From Chitinophagales bacterium (GTDB taxonomy: Bacteria; Bacteroidota; Bacteroidia; Chitinophagales; CAIODY01), in assembly GCA_947452995.1 (NCBI GenBank), contig CANGEV010000019.1, positions 1 through 46,638 on the forward strand: a stretch of 46,638 nucleotides of DNA, given 5' to 3'. The notes beneath the pieces are model-generated. The model did not search any database and was not told the origin of the DNA. It saw only the letters and a list, made by a program, of their open reading frames with translations. This document shows, in pieces, positions 17,708-25,594 of the stretch (its first letter is position 1; every line of letters starts with the position of its first letter). The position numbers and the translations under genes are program-made.

Positions 17708-18682
17708 ATGAACTTGAAAGTTGGAATTATTGGTGTCGGCCATCTTGGCCGTATTCACCTTCAACAATGGCTACAAATTGAACGCGTTGACGTTATCGGT
17801 TTTTTCGACCCTTTTGATGAAAATGCCGAAAAGGCCATTGAAATGGGTGCTGCACGATTTAATTCATTAGAAGAATTAATCAATGCTGCAGACGCTATTG
17901 ATATCGTAAGTACTACCACTGCACATTATCAAATAGCTTGCTTAGCACTTCAACAAAAAAAACACGTCTTTATTGAAAAGCCTATCACCCATACCTTGCA
18001 AGAGGCACAACACTTATTGCAATTAATTCAAGAAGCTGGTGTGAAAGGACAGGTTGGTCATGTAGAACGTTTCAATCCCGGGTTTTTATCCATTAAAGAC
18101 TATGCGCTTAACCCGCTTTTTATCGAATGTCATCGCTTGGCTCAGTTTAACCCACGTGGTACAGATGTATCTGTTATCCTCGATCTCATGATTCATGATA
18201 TCGATATTATATTAAGTGTCGTTAAATCAAAAGTAGTGAACGTCGCTGCAAGCGGTGTCGCTGTAGTAAGCGAATCTTTAGACATTGCAAATGCACGCCT
18301 AGAATTCGAAAATGGTTGTGTGGCTAATATTACCGCTTCTAGAATGGCACTCAAGAAAATGCGTAAAATACGTTTCTTCCAAAAAGATGCTTATATCGGA
18401 GTAGACTTCCTAGAAAAGAAAAGTGAAATCTGCCGCCTAAGTGATACTGCTCAAGAAAATGATTGGGCGATTCCATTAGAGATTCCTAATCAAGCGACAC
18501 GCTATATTCACTTCGAAGCACCAAATGTAGTCGATTCAAATGCTATACGTACCGAATTGTCGATGTTCCGCGATGCTATCGAACAAGACATTCCTTGCTC
18601 CGTAAGTTTTGAAGATGGCTACAATGCACTTTTGGTCGCTTCTGAAATCTATGAGCAAATCATTCAAAAGCAAAAAAAATAA
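17708..18682 (+). CDS. Gfo/Idh/MocA-family oxidoreductase
   Basis: 324 residues. An N-terminal Rossmann fold opens with GIIGVGHLGRIHLQQW. The family's EKP triad is seen in FIEKPITHTLQEA, and a conserved VGHVERFNPGF segment precedes the C-terminal alpha/beta domain. Close relatives act on sugars or nucleotide sugars with NAD(P). It is the first gene of a plus-strand operon (gaps 52, 0 and 3 bp) with a lipoprotein, a sugar-phosphate transferase and an isoprenoid-synthase-like gene, so a role in preparing a sugar for a surface glycolipid or polysaccharide is plausible. The dehydrogenase substrate cannot be named. Confidence 0.88.
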   Translation: MNLKVGIIGVGHLGRIHLQQWLQIERVDVIGFFDPFDENAEKAIEMGAARFNSLEELINAADAIDIVSTTTAHYQIACLALQQKKHVFIEKPITHTLQEAQHLLQLIQEAGVKGQVGHVERFNPGFLSIKDYALNPLFIECHRLAQFNPRGTDVSVILDLMIHDIDIILSVVKSKVVNVAASGVAVVSESLDIANARLEFENGCVANITASRMALKKMRKIRFFQKDAYIGVDFLEKKSEICRLSDTAQENDWAIPLEIPNQATRYIHFEAPNVVDSNAIRTELSMFRDAIEQDIPCSVSFEDGYNALLVASEIYEQIIQKQKK

Positions 18683-18734: not shown

Positions 18735-19592
18735 ATGAGAAAACGTTTTTCGCCACTATTCTTAATCGCAGTATTTTTCTGCATCACCATCTGGGCTTGC
18801 GTAAAACCCTCTGCCAAACCTGTATACATCCATATTGATAAATTTAGCTTCTCTTGCGATCCCTCTACCGAAGGAACTGCTACTGCTAAAGTAACAGACG
18901 CTTGGATTTATATTAATGAACAAGCCGTTGGTGTTTATCAACTCCCGTGCACCATTCCTGTCATAGCAGACGGTAAAACACAAATCTTGATTAGCCCAGG
19001 TATCATGCGCAACGGTATTCCTGACAAACGCGCGGCTTACGATAATTACTCCTCCTTTATTGATACCCTAACACTTATTCCGCTAGATACTATCACCCTC
19101 CATCCTTCTGCACATTATATCAGCGGACTGAAATTTAACTGGATGGAAGATTTTGAAAAAGGCTGCTCACTATCCAATTATGGCGGTGATACTGGTATCG
19201 TGCGTGTCAATTCAGCTGATACGTCAAATGTGATTTCTGGTACCACCTCCGGTGTTGTGAAGTTGACTGACGCAAATCCAAAGATGATAATCAAAACCAA
19301 TACAGCACTCATTGTTCCAACCGATGGTACTCCGCTTTATATGGAAATGGATTATAAAAATGATATTCCGCTTACCATCAGTTTTGTAGCGGATGTCAAT
19401 GGGGTTGCCGTTTCTCATGATTATGTTACCCTGAACACAAAAAAATATTGGAACAAAATTTATATCGACTTCACTGAGCCCTTCGCATCCTTAAGAGCTA
19501 GCAATTATCAAATAATTTTCAAGGCTACTAAAAGTGTGGACGGCAGTGTCGCATACATTCGTTTAGATAATATCAAGTTTATAACTCGCTAA
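18735..19592 (+). CDS. Hypothetical lipoprotein in glycosylation operon
   Basis: 285 residues from the ATG at 18735. A longer reading from 18609 overlaps the oxidoreductase gene and lacks a signal peptide, so it was rejected. MRKRFSPLFLIAVFFCITIWAC is a lipoprotein signal peptide with Cys22 as the probable lipid site. The rest looks beta-rich and exported. Segments such as AWIYINEQAVGVYQLPCTIPVIADGKTQILISPGIM are like a carboxypeptidase-regulatory fold, and the C-terminal half (LYMEMDYKNDIPLTISF, YIRLDNIKF) resembles a jelly-roll carbohydrate-binding fold. No family is certain. The stop codon TAA is directly followed by the GTG start of the next gene, so the two are translationally coupled. 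Confidence 0.75.
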   Translation: MRKRFSPLFLIAVFFCITIWACVKPSAKPVYIHIDKFSFSCDPSTEGTATAKVTDAWIYINEQAVGVYQLPCTIPVIADGKTQILISPGIMRNGIPDKRAAYDNYSSFIDTLTLIPLDTITLHPSAHYISGLKFNWMEDFEKGCSLSNYGGDTGIVRVNSADTSNVISGTTSGVVKLTDANPKMIIKTNTALIVPTDGTPLYMEMDYKNDIPLTISFVADVNGVAVSHDYVTLNTKKYWNKIYIDFTEPFASLRASNYQIIFKATKSVDGSVAYIRLDNIKFITR

Positions 19593-21008
19593 GTGAAGTC
19601 GCGTTTACCAAAATATAGTTATCTACTCTCTGATTGGCTTACAGCTATTCTGGCCTGGACAAGCTTTTTCTTTTTTAGAAAAATTAGTATCGAAGGTTAT
19701 GATTATACACAAGCCTTTCAAAGTTTGAAGGACCCACAACTAGCTTGGGGCCTAGTATTCATTCCTGCCGCATGGTGCGCAGTATATGCCTTGCTTGGCT
19801 CATACGAAGATATTTACCGCAAGTCGAGATTGAATGAATTTTTTAAAACCATTTCTATCACAGCAATAGGTTCAATTGTTCTTTTCTTTTCTGTAATACT
19901 TGATGACAAAGTGCCAAGCGCTCAATCCTATTTAAAAGCTTTCTTTTTGCTTTTTACATGCTCTTTCCTATGTGTCTTTTTGGGGCGCTATTTTCTTTTA
20001 GTAATAACAAAAAAACAATTGGTTAATCGGCAGGTTGGTTTTAACACGATTATTCTTGGCGGAGATCAACGAGCAATTGATATTTATAAAGAAATAAACG
20101 ATCGTGAAAAATCCCTCGGCTATAGCTTCTGTGGATTTATCTATACAGAAGAAAATGGAACAAATGGCCTAAGCAAATACCTTCCTAATCTCGGTCATTT
20201 AAAACAAATAAAAACTATCATTCAAGAACATCAAATTGAAGAGGTAATCATAGCTGTGGAAACACGCGACCACGACAAACTCAATTTATTAATAAACTCC
20301 CTCGCTGATCAAAAAGTAAATATTCATATTATCCCCGACTTCTACGATATCTTAAGCGGAAGCGTTAAGATGAACCACGTGCTTGGCGCTATACTAATAG
20401 GTGTTAATCCAGAATTAATGCCACTTTGGCAAAAGAAAATAAAACGCGTTTTTGACATTAGCATCGCTAGCTTAGCACTTATCGCAATTTCCCCTCTATT
20501 ACTTTTTACTGCATTGCGCGTGCGTTTCTCCTCTAAAGGTCCGATCATCTACTCGCAAGAAAGAGTTGGTAAAAATGGTAAACATTTTAGAATCTATAAA
20601 TTTAGATCTATGTTTATCGATGCGGAAAAAAACGGGCCCGCCCTTTCCTCCGAAAATGATCCACGTATAACAAGCTGGGGAAAGATTATGCGCAAATGGC
20701 GACTCGATGAATTACCACAATTTTATAACATCATAATAGGTGATATGAGCCTTGTGGGTCCTCGCCCCGAACGCCAGCATTTCATCGAACAAATCGTGAA
20801 AATAAATCCAGCTTATATTCACTTACAAAAAGTTCAACCCGGACTTACCTCTTGGGGGATGGTGAAATTCGGCTACGCAAGCAATGTAGATCAAATGGTG
20901 GAACGAATGAAGTATGATATTCTTTATATCGAAAATATGTCGCTGGCTCTAGATTTTAAAATTATTATCTACACCTTCTTGATTATTTTTCAAGGTAAAG
21001 GAAAATAA
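19593..21008 (+). CDS. Polyprenyl-phosphate sugar phosphotransferase (WcaJ-like)
   Basis: 471 residues from a GTG start that directly abuts the preceding stop codon (TAAGTG); no internal ATG would keep the N-terminal membrane helices. About five membrane segments in the first 130 residues lead into a CoA-binding-like Rossmann domain (NTIILGGDQRAIDIYKEI) and a C-terminal bacterial sugar transferase domain. The latter has KRVFDISIASLALI, KFRSMFIDAE, WRLDELPQFYNIIIGDMSLVGPRPE and LTSWGMVKFGYA. It transfers a sugar-1-phosphate from a nucleotide sugar onto undecaprenyl phosphate, the first step of exopolysaccharide or glycan synthesis at the inner membrane. Glycosyltransferases and flippases are not nearby, so the product is unknown. 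Confidence 0.93.
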   Translation: MKSRLPKYSYLLSDWLTAILAWTSFFFFRKISIEGYDYTQAFQSLKDPQLAWGLVFIPAAWCAVYALLGSYEDIYRKSRLNEFFKTISITAIGSIVLFFSVILDDKVPSAQSYLKAFFLLFTCSFLCVFLGRYFLLVITKKQLVNRQVGFNTIILGGDQRAIDIYKEINDREKSLGYSFCGFIYTEENGTNGLSKYLPNLGHLKQIKTIIQEHQIEEVIIAVETRDHDKLNLLINSLADQKVNIHIIPDFYDILSGSVKMNHVLGAILIGVNPELMPLWQKKIKRVFDISIASLALIAISPLLLFTALRVRFSSKGPIIYSQERVGKNGKHFRIYKFRSMFIDAEKNGPALSSENDPRITSWGKIMRKWRLDELPQFYNIIIGDMSLVGPRPERQHFIEQIVKINPAYIHLQKVQPGLTSWGMVKFGYASNVDQMVERMKYDILYIENMSLALDFKIIIYTFLIIFQGKGK

Positions 21009-21011
21009 TTC

Positions 21012-21998
21012 ATGCGAAAATCTATACTTGATTATGGTCGCTTTTTCGGACAGCTATTGCCATTGTCAGCACCATTAGTCCGACAATTTTTTTTCTATCA
21101 TTGTAATGTAAAACCTTTAATAAAAAGTTGGAAGAGTCGCTTTCCTGATATAGCCACGAATAAAGAAATAAAAAGACTTCTTTTCTTTGGTGTTTTTATC
21201 CCGGTAATGCAAGGCAATGGATTCGCTCTATTGAGAAAAGAAAAAATGAATAGAAAAGAACGTCTTACGATGACACTTTTCGCAACCGCAACACCCCTAT
21301 TCGACGACTTCTTTGATGAGAACTTTAGTACCCATGAAGAACTAGAAGAGTTTTTTCGACTGCGTGAAAATTATCTACCTAAACATCCGAAGTCGATTCT
21401 TCTTTTTGAATTACTACTTACAATAAAACCTCTTCTATCTCACCCTGAAGAATTTATTCATCTCGCTTACCAAGTTTATACAGCACAACAACACGCTAAA
21501 AAAATTCAAAGCGATATTAATAGTGATGTCAATGCAATTTTCATCGCCTCCATGGATAAATGTGAAAAATCCTGCTTACTTTTTGGTGAAATTTTAAATC
21601 TCCTTGAAATTGCGCAAGCAAAGCTTATCATTCTTCAATGTGGCTTACTCATTCAATTCACAGACGATATTTTCGACATGTGGATGGATGAGCAATCAGG
21701 GATTCATACAGTGGCCACTAAGGCAACTTCGATTGCTGCATTGGAACAACATTATTTATTAGAATGGGATAAGTTAAAACAGCTCTGTCAGAGCCTTCCA
21801 GAGAAAAAAAGAAAACGCTTTTTAGATTTTCAATGGTTCTTTTTCTCTCGTACTTTGGTTGCTTTACATCAGTTGAAATCTACTTGTAATCCTTTAAACT
21901 TCGATATTAAAAATTACAACCGTACAGAACTAGTTTGTGATATGGCTAAATGGTCTAACTTCAAACGCTGGGTAAACGCCTTTAGTTTATTAAAATAG
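21012..21998 (+). CDS. Class I isoprenoid-synthase-like protein with two DDxxD motifs
   Basis: 328 residues, all-helical in appearance, no signal peptide. Two aspartate-rich motifs sit 120 residues apart: DDFFDE at 98-103 and TDDIFDMWMD at 217-226. The second, in the context GLLIQFTDDIFDMWMDE, closely resembles the second aspartate-rich region of trans-prenyl diphosphate synthases (FQIxDDxxDxxGD). The prenyltransferase RRG after the first motif and the GK after the second are missing, so chain elongation as such is doubtful; a cyclase, squalene-synthase-like or sugar/lipid-carrier role is possible. Both motifs would bind magnesium-diphosphate. It begins 3 bp after the polyprenyl-phosphate sugar transferase gene, and the terminator stem contains its stop codon. 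Confidence 0.7.
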   Translation: MRKSILDYGRFFGQLLPLSAPLVRQFFFYHCNVKPLIKSWKSRFPDIATNKEIKRLLFFGVFIPVMQGNGFALLRKEKMNRKERLTMTLFATATPLFDDFFDENFSTHEELEEFFRLRENYLPKHPKSILLFELLLTIKPLLSHPEEFIHLAYQVYTAQQHAKKIQSDINSDVNAIFIASMDKCEKSCLLFGEILNLLEIAQAKLIILQCGLLIQFTDDIFDMWMDEQSGIHTVATKATSIAALEQHYLLEWDKLKQLCQSLPEKKRKRFLDFQWFFFSRTLVALHQLKSTCNPLNFDIKNYNRTELVCDMAKWSNFKRWVNAFSLLK

Positions 21999-22048: not shown

Positions 22049-25000
22049 CTATTGCTTTATTACGCGTTTAATATCCACTCCCTCTTTTCCTTCAATCATC
22101 AATAAATATGTTCCAGCAGATAAATCTGTTGTGTTCACCACCAATTCCCGGCTACCACTTGACATATTTTCTTCTCCTAAATCTTTCACCGCTTTACCAT
22201 TCATATCAAACAATCGGATATGCAACTTATCTGACTTCATCAATGAAAATTGAATGCGCAATTCTTGCTCAAATGGGTTTGGAAACACCTTCAGATTGAT
22301 GTCCTTTGCAAACACGCTGATACCTGTTGCATCATATACAAATACCGTTACTTGATCATTATCTACACAGCCATTTGCATCTGTTCCTGTCAACACATAA
22401 GTACTTGTCACCGTTGGACTAGCAGTAGTTGTTGCAGTGGTAGTGCTAGTCAAAGCTGTAGATGGTGTCCATAGATAAGTTAAAGCACCCGAACCATTTA
22501 AGGTCGTAGAGTTTCCAAGAGAAATAATCACATCTGATCCTGCAGATACTTGCGGTAATGGTAACATATTAACCTGGACAGAATCTTTATCAAAACAACC
22601 ATTCGCATCCGTTACTGTCAATGTATACATTTCTGATGTCATTACATTCACTGTAGGGTTAGCAATGTTTGCAGAACTTAATCCTGTTATCGGTGCCCAT
22701 GAATAGGTATATCCTGATACAGGTGCAGTACCTATTGATCCTGCCATACCGTAACAATACGAAACATTCGAACCGGCATTTGCATTTGGTTTAGGATTTA
22801 CTGTAACAACTACAGTATCCTTCTTTGTACATCCCATTGCATCTACCGCAGTAACAACATAAGTAGTAGTAGCTGTTGGAGTAGCTAGAGGATTACTAGA
22901 GGATGCAGAATTTAATCCTGTTGCAGGCACCCAGGTGAATGTATATGGCGCAGATGCTCCAAACATAGTAGGTGTTCCTCCTAATTCAGCAGAATAACCA
23001 GCACATACCGTAGCATTAACACCAGCACTCACACCAAATGTTGTAGAACCACCAGGGCCTGTTACCGTTGCAGAGGAAGATCCTGTACAACCATTGCCGT
23101 CTGTTACCGTTACGGCATAGGTTCCATTACATACACTCTTTGCTGTGTCTAAGAAAATACTTAAAAACGGACTACTACTAAATACATAATTTCCAGAACC
23201 ACCAACAGGATTCATAACGACCATACCATTACATAATCCGCAACTTGTATTCACAATACTTAATGTTAATGATATCGGTGCCGGATTTATAAAACTTGCT
23301 GTGTCTTGAATAGTACATCCTAAGAAATCTGTAATGTTTACATAGTATGTATTTGGCGTAGCATTTGTTATACCTGTATTAGTACCAATTGGCGTAGTTG
23401 ACCATTGATAAGTATAAGGTGCTGTACCTCCTGATACACTTACACTGGCAGTTCCATTATTCGCATTGTTACATGTAATAGGTGAAGTATTCATAAAACT
23501 ACTCATAACCCCATCCACTTTTACAATAACATTATCACTCGCAAAACAACCGTGTGAATCCGTAACAGTAATTGTATATGTAGTAGCACTACTAGGATTC
23601 GCAGTTGGATTCGCGGTGCTTGCTGAACTTAAACCAATACTTGGTGTCCATGAATAAGTAGTATAAATTCCAGATCCTCCGCTCGCGGTAGGCGCTCCCC
23701 CTATATTAGCAATATTAGATCCGCAAACCGTTGTGTTAGCACCAGCATTCACAATCGGATTTGTATACGGATACACAACAACCGTATCGAAAGAAGCACA
23801 ACCCCCTTGATTCGTCGTTTGTAAAATATAAGATGTAATATTTAATGGCGTCGCAACAGGATTCGCGGTATTAATAACATTCAATCCAACACTTGGTGTC
23901 CAATTATAATACAAACCACCTGTACCTTGCAAAGTCACCGATCCGCCACTGCAATAAGATGTGTCATTACCGGCATTAGCTACTGTCATCGGATATACTG
24001 TGATAATTACAGCGCTATCTGAAAAACTAGAACAATTTCCATGCTCAATTGAATCTACAAAGCCTACATGTAATGTGTCCGTTACCATCAAACCTGTTAC
24101 AGCAAAAGTTAAAGTTCCTCCATTACCCCAAACAGGATTTCCAGAAACATTTTGATAGTGCGAATTAGCAACAAAGTAGGCGTAATTCATGCTCGTATTA
24201 TTTATTTGAACAGTGCTATTTCCACCGCCACATAATACAGTCGGGCCTGCTGTAATACTTGCTGTATCAACAGCATCAAATATTAATACATCATCAATTC
24301 CTAAATCATAAAATGCAGGCACTGCTACAAATTTTAATGAGATATTGGGCTGACGAGCATATTGACCTAAACATACTTGGAATTGTTTCCATCCTCCTGG
24401 ATAGGAACTATAATTTGAATTATATAGATCCAATGAATCTAACTGAGTATAACTGATACCTCCATTATTAGAACCATAAACCAACACATAGTTACTACCA
24501 AATGGCGTGTATTGGTTAAAATAGAATTTCATAGCCGGATTTTTCAAAGTAGTAAAATCCAAACACGGACTAATCAAATCACCAGAAGCTCCATTAACAG
24601 CACCTGCTAATTGTGTACCACCATGAGCTGGTAAGTTTGGAAAACCTAAATTGTTTACAACACTCCACGCTCCATTAGATACTATCCATGGTGGAGTTGC
24701 TGATTCGAAATCTTCTAACCATGGAAAAGAGGATATGGTTGGATAATGAATAACTATCGCATGTGCAGTATCATCTTGTGGTAAAGTATCACCAAATGTT
24801 GTAGCCCAGAACGTAACATAATTATTACCTATAGTACTAAAATCTGCTGGCGCTGGTATACTCACAGTATATCCTGTTAATGGCGGAATGGTTGCATTTA
24901 TAGTAGAAGATCCTGTAGAAAAACCATTATTGATATCAAAGTTTACATTAAACTGAAATATGGTATCTGTTCCCGCATTAAATACGTTTGCTACGATTGT

Positions 25001-25594
25001 TTCCGCTGTTCCTAAATTACAACTGTTTAATGGCGACACTAAGTTGAACATTGCGATATCGTATGGCGTCGCTGCAGGAATAAAAATACCGTAATCTTCT
25101 GTTTCACCGAATCCGTACGTTGCACATGGATCGAATGTTGTTGTATTATAGATTTCACGAACACGCATGACAGAATTACCCGGCACTGCTGTCAAAGGAA
25201 CTGTAAATACAATAGTGCTAGTTTGTGACCCAGTCATATTTTGAATTATTCCTAATAACTCCGCTGGGTCAAATAAAAAATTATGATTATAATCAATCCA
25301 TGCTGCCATATTATTGGAAGCACTCGGCCATGTTCCACATTGAAGTGTTAAGGTATATGTTACACCCGGTACCAATAGGGTTGACATATTTGTATAATTA
25401 TTATAATAGGGTATACCTGAAGCCGGACCACTATTTGTATTATTGATTGTTCCTAATTGCACACTATTGATATAGTCACCTGAAGAACTATTACATGTTG
25501 GTGGAATATTACCAGGACAATAATAATTTTGAGCATTCACTGTATTGATGGTGAACACAAAAATTGCTAAAAAAAAGAGGAGCCCTTTTTTCAT
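22049..25594 (-). CDS. Giant T9SS protein with GEVED and SprB-like repeats
   Basis: 1181 residues. Signal peptide (MKKGLLFFLAIFVFTINTVNAQ). A GEVED domain (about 75-170: AAWIDYNHNFLFDP, TYGFGETEDYGIF) comes first. A likely jelly-roll region (about 280-440) follows, with FPWLEDFESATPPW and SLKFVAVPAFYDLGIDDV. Then come at least five immunoglobulin-like repeats, each of the form NAG..T.YC.G..V.L.G... Y.WTP..GL....NP.A.P..T.TY.L.VTD..GC...D.V. A SprB-type repeat (PITCNNANNGTASVSVSGG) is among them. A T9SS type A domain closes it (LKVFPNPFEQELRI). Large proteins of this kind act in adhesion, gliding or biofilm. No enzymatic domain is seen. Confidence 0.88.
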   Translation of the reverse strand: MKKGLLFFLAIFVFTINTVNAQNYYCPGNIPPTCNSSSGDYINSVQLGTINNTNSGPASGIPYYNNYTNMSTLLVPGVTYTLTLQCGTWPSASNNMAAWIDYNHNFLFDPAELLGIIQNMTGSQTSTIVFTVPLTAVPGNSVMRVREIYNTTTFDPCATYGFGETEDYGIFIPAATPYDIAMFNLVSPLNSCNLGTAETIVANVFNAGTDTIFQFNVNFDINNGFSTGSSTINATIPPLTGYTVSIPAPADFSTIGNNYVTFWATTFGDTLPQDDTAHAIVIHYPTISSFPWLEDFESATPPWIVSNGAWSVVNNLGFPNLPAHGGTQLAGAVNGASGDLISPCLDFTTLKNPAMKFYFNQYTPFGSNYVLVYGSNNGGISYTQLDSLDLYNSNYSSYPGGWKQFQVCLGQYARQPNISLKFVAVPAFYDLGIDDVLIFDAVDTASITAGPTVLCGGGNSTVQINNTSMNYAYFVANSHYQNVSGNPVWGNGGTLTFAVTGLMVTDTLHVGFVDSIEHGNCSSFSDSAVIITVYPMTVANAGNDTSYCSGGSVTLQGTGGLYYNWTPSVGLNVINTANPVATPLNITSYILQTTNQGGCASFDTVVVYPYTNPIVNAGANTTVCGSNIANIGGAPTASGGSGIYTTYSWTPSIGLSSASTANPTANPSSATTYTITVTDSHGCFASDNVIVKVDGVMSSFMNTSPITCNNANNGTASVSVSGGTAPYTYQWSTTPIGTNTGITNATPNTYYVNITDFLGCTIQDTASFINPAPISLTLSIVNTSCGLCNGMVVMNPVGGSGNYVFSSSPFLSIFLDTAKSVCNGTYAVTVTDGNGCTGSSSATVTGPGGSTTFGVSAGVNATVCAGYSAELGGTPTMFGASAPYTFTWVPATGLNSASSSNPLATPTATTTYVVTAVDAMGCTKKDTVVVTVNPKPNANAGSNVSYCYGMAGSIGTAPVSGYTYSWAPITGLSSANIANPTVNVMTSEMYTLTVTDANGCFDKDSVQVNMLPLPQVSAGSDVIISLGNSTTLNGSGALTYLWTPSTALTSTTTATTTASPTVTSTYVLTGTDANGCVDNDQVTVFVYDATGISVFAKDINLKVFPNPFEQELRIQFSLMKSDKLHIRLFDMNGKAVKDLGEENMSSGSRELVVNTTDLSAGTYLLMIEGKEGVDIKRVIKQ

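Follow-up and report, generated by a model that had tools for sequence, protein, structure and literature searches.

The window, the whole stretch of DNA that was analysed, comprises 46,638 nucleotides of contig CANGEV010000019.1 from a Chitinophagales bacterium. On its forward strand lie a Gfo/Idh/MocA-family dehydrogenase (17708..18682), a lipoprotein-like ORF of unassigned family (18735..19592), the start of which was picked by eye at a lipoprotein-type signal, an EPS polyprenyl glycosylphosphotransferase (19593..21008) and, 3 bp downstream of the latter, the gene under study (21012..21998), which encodes a protein of 328 residues, here called P0001. The first-pass annotation had described this ORF, the adjoining sugar transferase, the dehydrogenase and the lipoprotein in the same terms, and the translation agrees with it. 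It had also called the transferase WcaJ-like. This label stands for a generic EPS sugar transferase, whose TIGR03025 cut-off is passed, but not for WcaJ proper, whose TIGR03023 cut-off is failed. A terminator-like hairpin is found directly 3' of the P0001 gene (22004..22022, + strand); it is weak evidence because seven such sites were found as against 3.8 expected. Convergent with the P0001 gene is a reading frame for a secreted-looking large repeat protein of 1181 residues (22049-25594, - strand), conserved in G002/L008. Comparison of the P0001 gene with its 80% identical copy in the genome G002 gives a dN of 0.147 and a dS of 1.46, i.e. a dN/dS of about 0.1, and the gene is therefore under purifying selection.

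Alignment of 82 family members reveals two aspartate-rich motifs, both at the positions proposed at first pass and both conserved. The first, DDFFDE (residues 98-103, codons 21303..21320, + strand), is the DDxxD/E motif of class I terpene synthases and prenyl synthases; D98 and D102 are invariant. The second metal motif, QFTDDIFDMWMD (residues 215-226, codons 21654..21689, + strand), includes the TDDIFDMWMD that begins at residue 217 and has the family form QLxNDIFDxYKD, with Q215, D219, D222 and D226 invariant. Position 218 is N in 69 of 87 rows and D in 15, P0001 reading D-D where its relatives mostly have N-D; some relatives read QLTND.YD. K183 (codon 21558..21560, + strand), T233 and D310 are likewise invariant. 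R304 (85/87 rows), M311, position 312, K313 and N316 are nearly so, which delimits a C-terminal signature, R304..DMxK..N316 (codons 21921..21959, + strand). Most members have Glu at position 312, but P0001 has Ala.

The same residues can be set against two classes of enzyme. In a profile alignment with 28 Bacteroidota prenyl diphosphate synthases, D98, D99 and D102 correspond to the first motif, K183 to the KT lysine, and Q215-D222 to the second Asp-rich motif, a likeness that the first-pass annotation had pointed out. It had also reported the RRG and GK elements to be absent. Indeed, at the places given by this alignment P0001 has no RRG, no GKR region and no GK of GKxT, and it reads GI.T in place of GK.T. 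Canonical class I terpene synthases, for their part, carry a diphosphate-sensor Arg and a C-terminal RY. K183 falls in their sensor-Arg region of the profile alignment, near the sensor itself, where a Lys seems to stand for the Arg; for the C-terminal RY, the nearly invariant R304 was considered. The residues N/D218, D222 and D226 are spaced i, i+4, i+8, as in the NSE triad. The NSE/DTE motif (N/DDxxS/TxxxE/D) is not found literally, as P0001 reads DDIFDMWMD, with D222 for S/T and Asp for Glu, and the family reads NDxFDxxKD.

P0001 belongs to a widespread bacterial enzyme family that has no Pfam or NCBIfam entry, in keeping with the earlier suggestion of a poorly described subfamily. The only Pfam match of P0001 is below threshold (Terpene_synth_C, PF03936, residues 80-117, 16.2 bits against a cut-off of 26.3). 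No NCBIfam model matches P0001, a phmmer search of PDB sequences finds no match for it, and an NCBIfam scan of the 82 members yields scattered chance matches only. Nothing recognisable as this class I family appears in the literature searched, mostly titles and the openings of abstracts. Because no such model names the family, terpene mining based on Pfam or NCBIfam would probably miss it. A homologue is present in 7 of 99 related genomes, the window's own included. A scan of genome contigs gave 128 stretches that encode a member; 80 loci were retained, 77 of them from Bacteroidota, two labelled 'uncultured bacterium' and one from a Chlorobiota MAG. Of 395 genomes sampled throughout the phylum, 10 match the first family profile (A1) and 12 a larger one, several of these weakly and in part. 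In a sample of 294 Chitinophagaceae genomes the class I gene occurs in 100, about one third. In a tree of 87 rows P0001 falls in a six-row clade (support 100/97) that has no shared partner gene. Another family, more distant and of about 415 residues, was seen at L096:1012-2271 and L097:1204-2442 (G353 and G211). It has KGGTSVL and QLxDDxxD stretches, a different first motif and no Pfam match, and L096 has no match in the PDB.

The AlphaFold2 model of P0001, built on the 82-sequence alignment, is all helical and confident (pLDDT 94.7, pTM 0.91). A Foldseek search of the PDB with this model gives no match at E 0.001 or better; the best matches are class I isoprenoid enzymes with E of 0.01-0.04 and probabilities of 0.99-1.00. 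In the VIA comparison, which must be read knowing that helical bundles can reach a Z of about 13 from their arrangement alone, MoeN5 comes first (Z 18.5, 3.5 A, 250 aligned), followed by prenyl (polyprenyl) synthases up to Z 16.9, the diterpene synthase Sat1646 at 16.0 and sestermobaraene synthase at 15.5. The predicted fold is that of class I isoprenoid enzymes. This comparison had been named beforehand as the check on the first-pass proposal of a divergent class I isoprenoid enzyme, and it agrees with that proposal, as do the conserved motifs and the missing database models. Judged by its fold, the model does not give the result set down there as a refutation, the lack of an all-alpha cavity in which the two Asp motifs would face one another. 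In profile-profile comparison the family is most similar to 14 canonical class I terpene synthases (E 7e-4 one way and 2e-5 the other), with the 28 Bacteroidota prenyl diphosphate synthases next (5e-3, 3e-3). No similarity is detected to 14 Bacteroidota phytoene synthases (0.44 and 0.23) or to an unrelated class II set (0.32 and 0.092). Used against the PDB, the 82-sequence profile has a best E of only 0.079; four of its seven hits at E <=10 are prenyl synthases, and some hits, such as growth hormone, are plainly due to chance.

Most family members lie among housekeeping genes (sucC, lepA, RNA methyltransferases, glyA and others, named by eye or by Pfam). Adjacency is therefore given weight only for two recurrent partners, a class II cyclase-like protein and a methyltransferase. 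Five class I genes, at L009, L014, L020, L022 and L071, lie just 3' of succinyl-CoA ligase subunit genes (by eye); they represent two unrelated lineages, and this is probably a coincidence. A SAM methyltransferase adjoins the class I gene in 8 of the 80 loci (L014, L019, L020, L022, L025, L027, L030 and L054), downstream on the opposite strand in five and upstream on the same strand in three. The eight proteins are 47-91% identical to one another, and on the 87-row tree the label requires a single change, in a clade other than that of the class II partner. Their NCBIfam matches include geranyl diphosphate methyltransferase models, far below cut-off, and it is possible that this clade makes a methylated (non-canonical) terpene. 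A geranylgeranyl-reductase-family protein is found near the class I gene in two loci (L035, above the NCBIfam cut-off, and a like gene at L037), and a UbiA prenyltransferase in one (L056).

The second recurrent partner, about 390 residues long, is encoded either after the class I gene or facing it in 12 Chitinophagaceae loci forming a BLAST cluster; L078, cut by a contig end, is a thirteenth by eye. Examples are L086:8893-10065 and L045:8966-10126, which with their homologues (alignment A4) are stand-alone class II cyclase-like proteins with signal-like N-termini. L045 (Segetibacter aerophilus) and L079 (Ilyomonas limi) are relatives better partnered than P0001. In Chitinophagaceae bacterium DXS (L017:6765-10026) the class II partner is preceded by two class I genes in tandem, the first very divergent, and all three lie on one strand. 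The partner has no convincing Pfam match. Its predicted model is of moderate quality (pLDDT 76.9, with residues 118-141, next to the DxDD motif, under 50) and contains both the alpha-barrel beta domain and the DxDD of class II terpene cyclases. Foldseek places drimenol synthase first (E 1e-7), as does VIA (Z 28 over about 300 residues), ahead of MstE (22.7) and squalene-hopene cyclase (about 22). Sugar epimerases with the same barrel reach 18-19; the fold is thus a shared one, though drimenol synthase leads clearly. A profile of 30 partner sequences run against the PDB hits drimenol synthase (0.0014), AsDMS (0.013) and AstC (0.14) first, each of which either is a terpene cyclase or carries in its annotation the HAD linkage of the drimenol synthase group. 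With this profile the DxDD aligns with DLDTT of drimenol synthase, and D145, D147 and D148 are invariant in the 30 sequences. A second partner clade has PDD(L/M/I)DDT, PDDLDDT forms among them, and is often encoded away from the class I gene. In the part of PMC12365925 drawn on here, D331 and D333 of AsDMS are essential; the partner's acid motif would correspond to these two residues.

A strongly hydrophobic stretch within the first 40 residues is found in 35 of 37 class II proteins, in 0 of 28 prenyl synthases and in 24 of 87 class I members. It must be noted that this measure, a crude hydrophobicity window, is loose, because so many class I members also pass it. By the look of its N-termini the class II partner is likely exported. 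The class I and class II proteins are both small and soluble-looking. Among the 294 Chitinophagaceae genomes the class I gene is found in 100, the class II gene in 60 and both in 50, as against 20.4 expected (Fisher test, 7e-19, ignoring the shared ancestry of the genomes). In ten genomes the class II gene is found and no class I gene is detected; in 50 it is the other way round. The two genes lie within 2 kb of each other in 23 genomes, with closest gaps of 25-189 bp. The class II partner probably acts in the pathway of the class I enzyme in many Chitinophagaceae relatives of P0001.

In the window genome (G000) the class II partner is not found. The sugar transferase adjoins the class I gene only there and in G002, both of one genus. 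In three genomes of the sister genus g2 a 65% identical transferase is encoded on contigs other than that of the class I gene, and in G001, of the same genus and 89% complete, no class I gene and no full-length match to the transferase were found. The first-pass annotation had connected P0001 with the glycan and had named conservation of the operon as a check. The linkage being confined to two genomes, and the neighbours of other members being unrelated, a dedicated glycan role is rejected as a general explanation. The carotenoid or hopanoid product suggested at the same time is not indicated either, because the window genome has a canonical phytoene synthase of its own and no match for squalene-hopene cyclase (SHC). 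It also has two canonical prenyl synthases. The canonical terpene synthase model has no match in it; the controls were silent too, though the model matched in 5 of 60 Chitinophagaceae.

On balance, we consider it rather probable that P0001, whose family is unnamed, acts in the cytoplasm as a metal-dependent class I terpene synthase. In our reading it has retained some prenyl-synthase features. A prenyl diphosphate supplied by the ordinary prenyl synthases of the cell would enter the all-helical pocket, where D98, D99 and D102, together with D218, D219, D222 and D226, may hold magnesium and the diphosphate, with K183 assisting the grip. The C-terminal R304-K313 segment would then close the active site. 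Departure of the diphosphate would leave a carbocation to be quenched or cyclised, giving a terpene hydrocarbon or alcohol. The terpenoid-type neighbours at some of the 80 loci fit this reading. Against it stand the absence of Foldseek matches in the PDB at E 0.001 or better, the first place of a glycolipid prenyltransferase, rather than of a terpene synthase, among the VIA matches, the lack of a literal NSE triad and the apparent Lys for the sensor Arg, the second motif, which can also be read as that of a prenyl synthase, and the housekeeping-only neighbourhood of most members, the clade of P0001 itself being without a conserved partner.

The VIA result could mean that P0001, like MoeN5, is a prenyltransferase with a lipid or glycolipid as acceptor, and this acceptor might be what the sugar transferase encoded 3 bp upstream, here and in G002, makes. 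The MoeN5 substrate is a phosphoglycolipid (PMC7839719, in the section drawn on). We regard this as unlikely: the lead in Z is small, profile similarity favours terpene synthases, MoeN5 is absent from the PDB hits of the family profile, and the link to the sugar transferase is limited to one genus. It is similarly improbable that P0001 is a prenyl diphosphate synthase, divergent but still able to add IPP, for an unusual chain. The aligned second motif and KT lysine speak for such an activity, as does the share of prenyl synthases among the PDB profile hits. Weak PF00348 matches occur in 16 of the 82 members (best 4.7e-5), none being reported for P0001 itself. Because P0001 lacks the IPP-binding elements, it is more probably a terpene synthase than an enzyme of chain elongation, and the window genome already has two canonical prenyl synthases. 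An enzyme joining two prenyl diphosphates in the manner of squalene or phytoene synthase is quite improbable. The QLTND.YD of some relatives does resemble the phytoene-synthase motif Q..N..D, the Foldseek hits include dehydrosqualene synthase CrtM and PF00494 is weakly matched by 2 of the 82 members, but the profile comparison detects no similarity to phytoene synthases, and the genome encodes its own. A catalytically dead or regulatory prenyl-synthase homologue, akin to a small subunit, would suit the isolation of most members among housekeeping genes, but with catalytic-type Asp and Lys residues invariant in 82 members and a dN/dS of about 0.1 it is very improbable.

A broader model can be put forward tentatively, and as a conjecture that may well fail. 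It assumes a hitherto undescribed, two-compartment terpene pathway in Bacteroidota. The new class I family would make a neutral terpene in the cytoplasm, to be finished outside the inner membrane by a class II cyclase that is exported and stands alone, its TCbeta domain preceded by a signal peptide. The branch of P0001 would work without the class II partner and would have joined an exopolysaccharide operon in its own genus. To our knowledge, the class II cyclases described so far are cytoplasmic or work at the cytoplasmic membrane; exported ones, if real, would be unusual.

Canonical bacterial class I terpene synthases (PF19086/PF03936) share with P0001 the fold, the DDxxD motif, the NSE spacing and the best profile-profile score. 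P0001 differs from them in having D-D-D rather than N-S-E, apparently Lys in place of the sensor Arg, a DMEKPxN signature of its own and a Pfam score below cut-off. Canonical terpene synthases from Chitinophagaceae are described in PMC12723471. With trans-prenyl diphosphate synthases (PF00348) P0001 has in common the first Asp motif, the KT lysine, the QxxDDxxD second motif and the fold. Unlike them, it lacks RRG and the GKR region, has GI.T for GK.T and has no recognisable IPP site. The moenomycin prenyltransferase MoeN5 resembles it most in fold, as judged by VIA, but is only about 9-10% identical to it in the structural alignment.

A precedent for a class II cyclase supplied by a non-canonical class I enzyme is offered by the class IB large-terpene synthases (YtpB/BalTS), which work with SqhC. 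The motifs given for BalTS in the portion of PMC7839719 used here, DYLDNLxD and DY(F,L,W)IDxxED, do not occur in the P0001 sequence; the two were compared by these motifs. The partner of the P0001 relatives is like the HAD-TCbeta drimenol synthases (AsDMS) in having one class II beta domain and an acid motif of the DxD type; unlike them, it has no HAD domain and begins with a hydrophobic, signal-like segment. Finally, a mixture of terpene- and prenyl-synthase features such as that of P0001 can work, if fungal IDS-like terpene synthases are a guide. As far as the part of PMC7484799 consulted describes them, these keep prenyl-synthase motifs and lack coupling activity, and one of them acted as a terpene synthase even though its second motif is conserved. 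They are close relatives of GGPP synthases, whereas the family of P0001 is bacterial and far more divergent.
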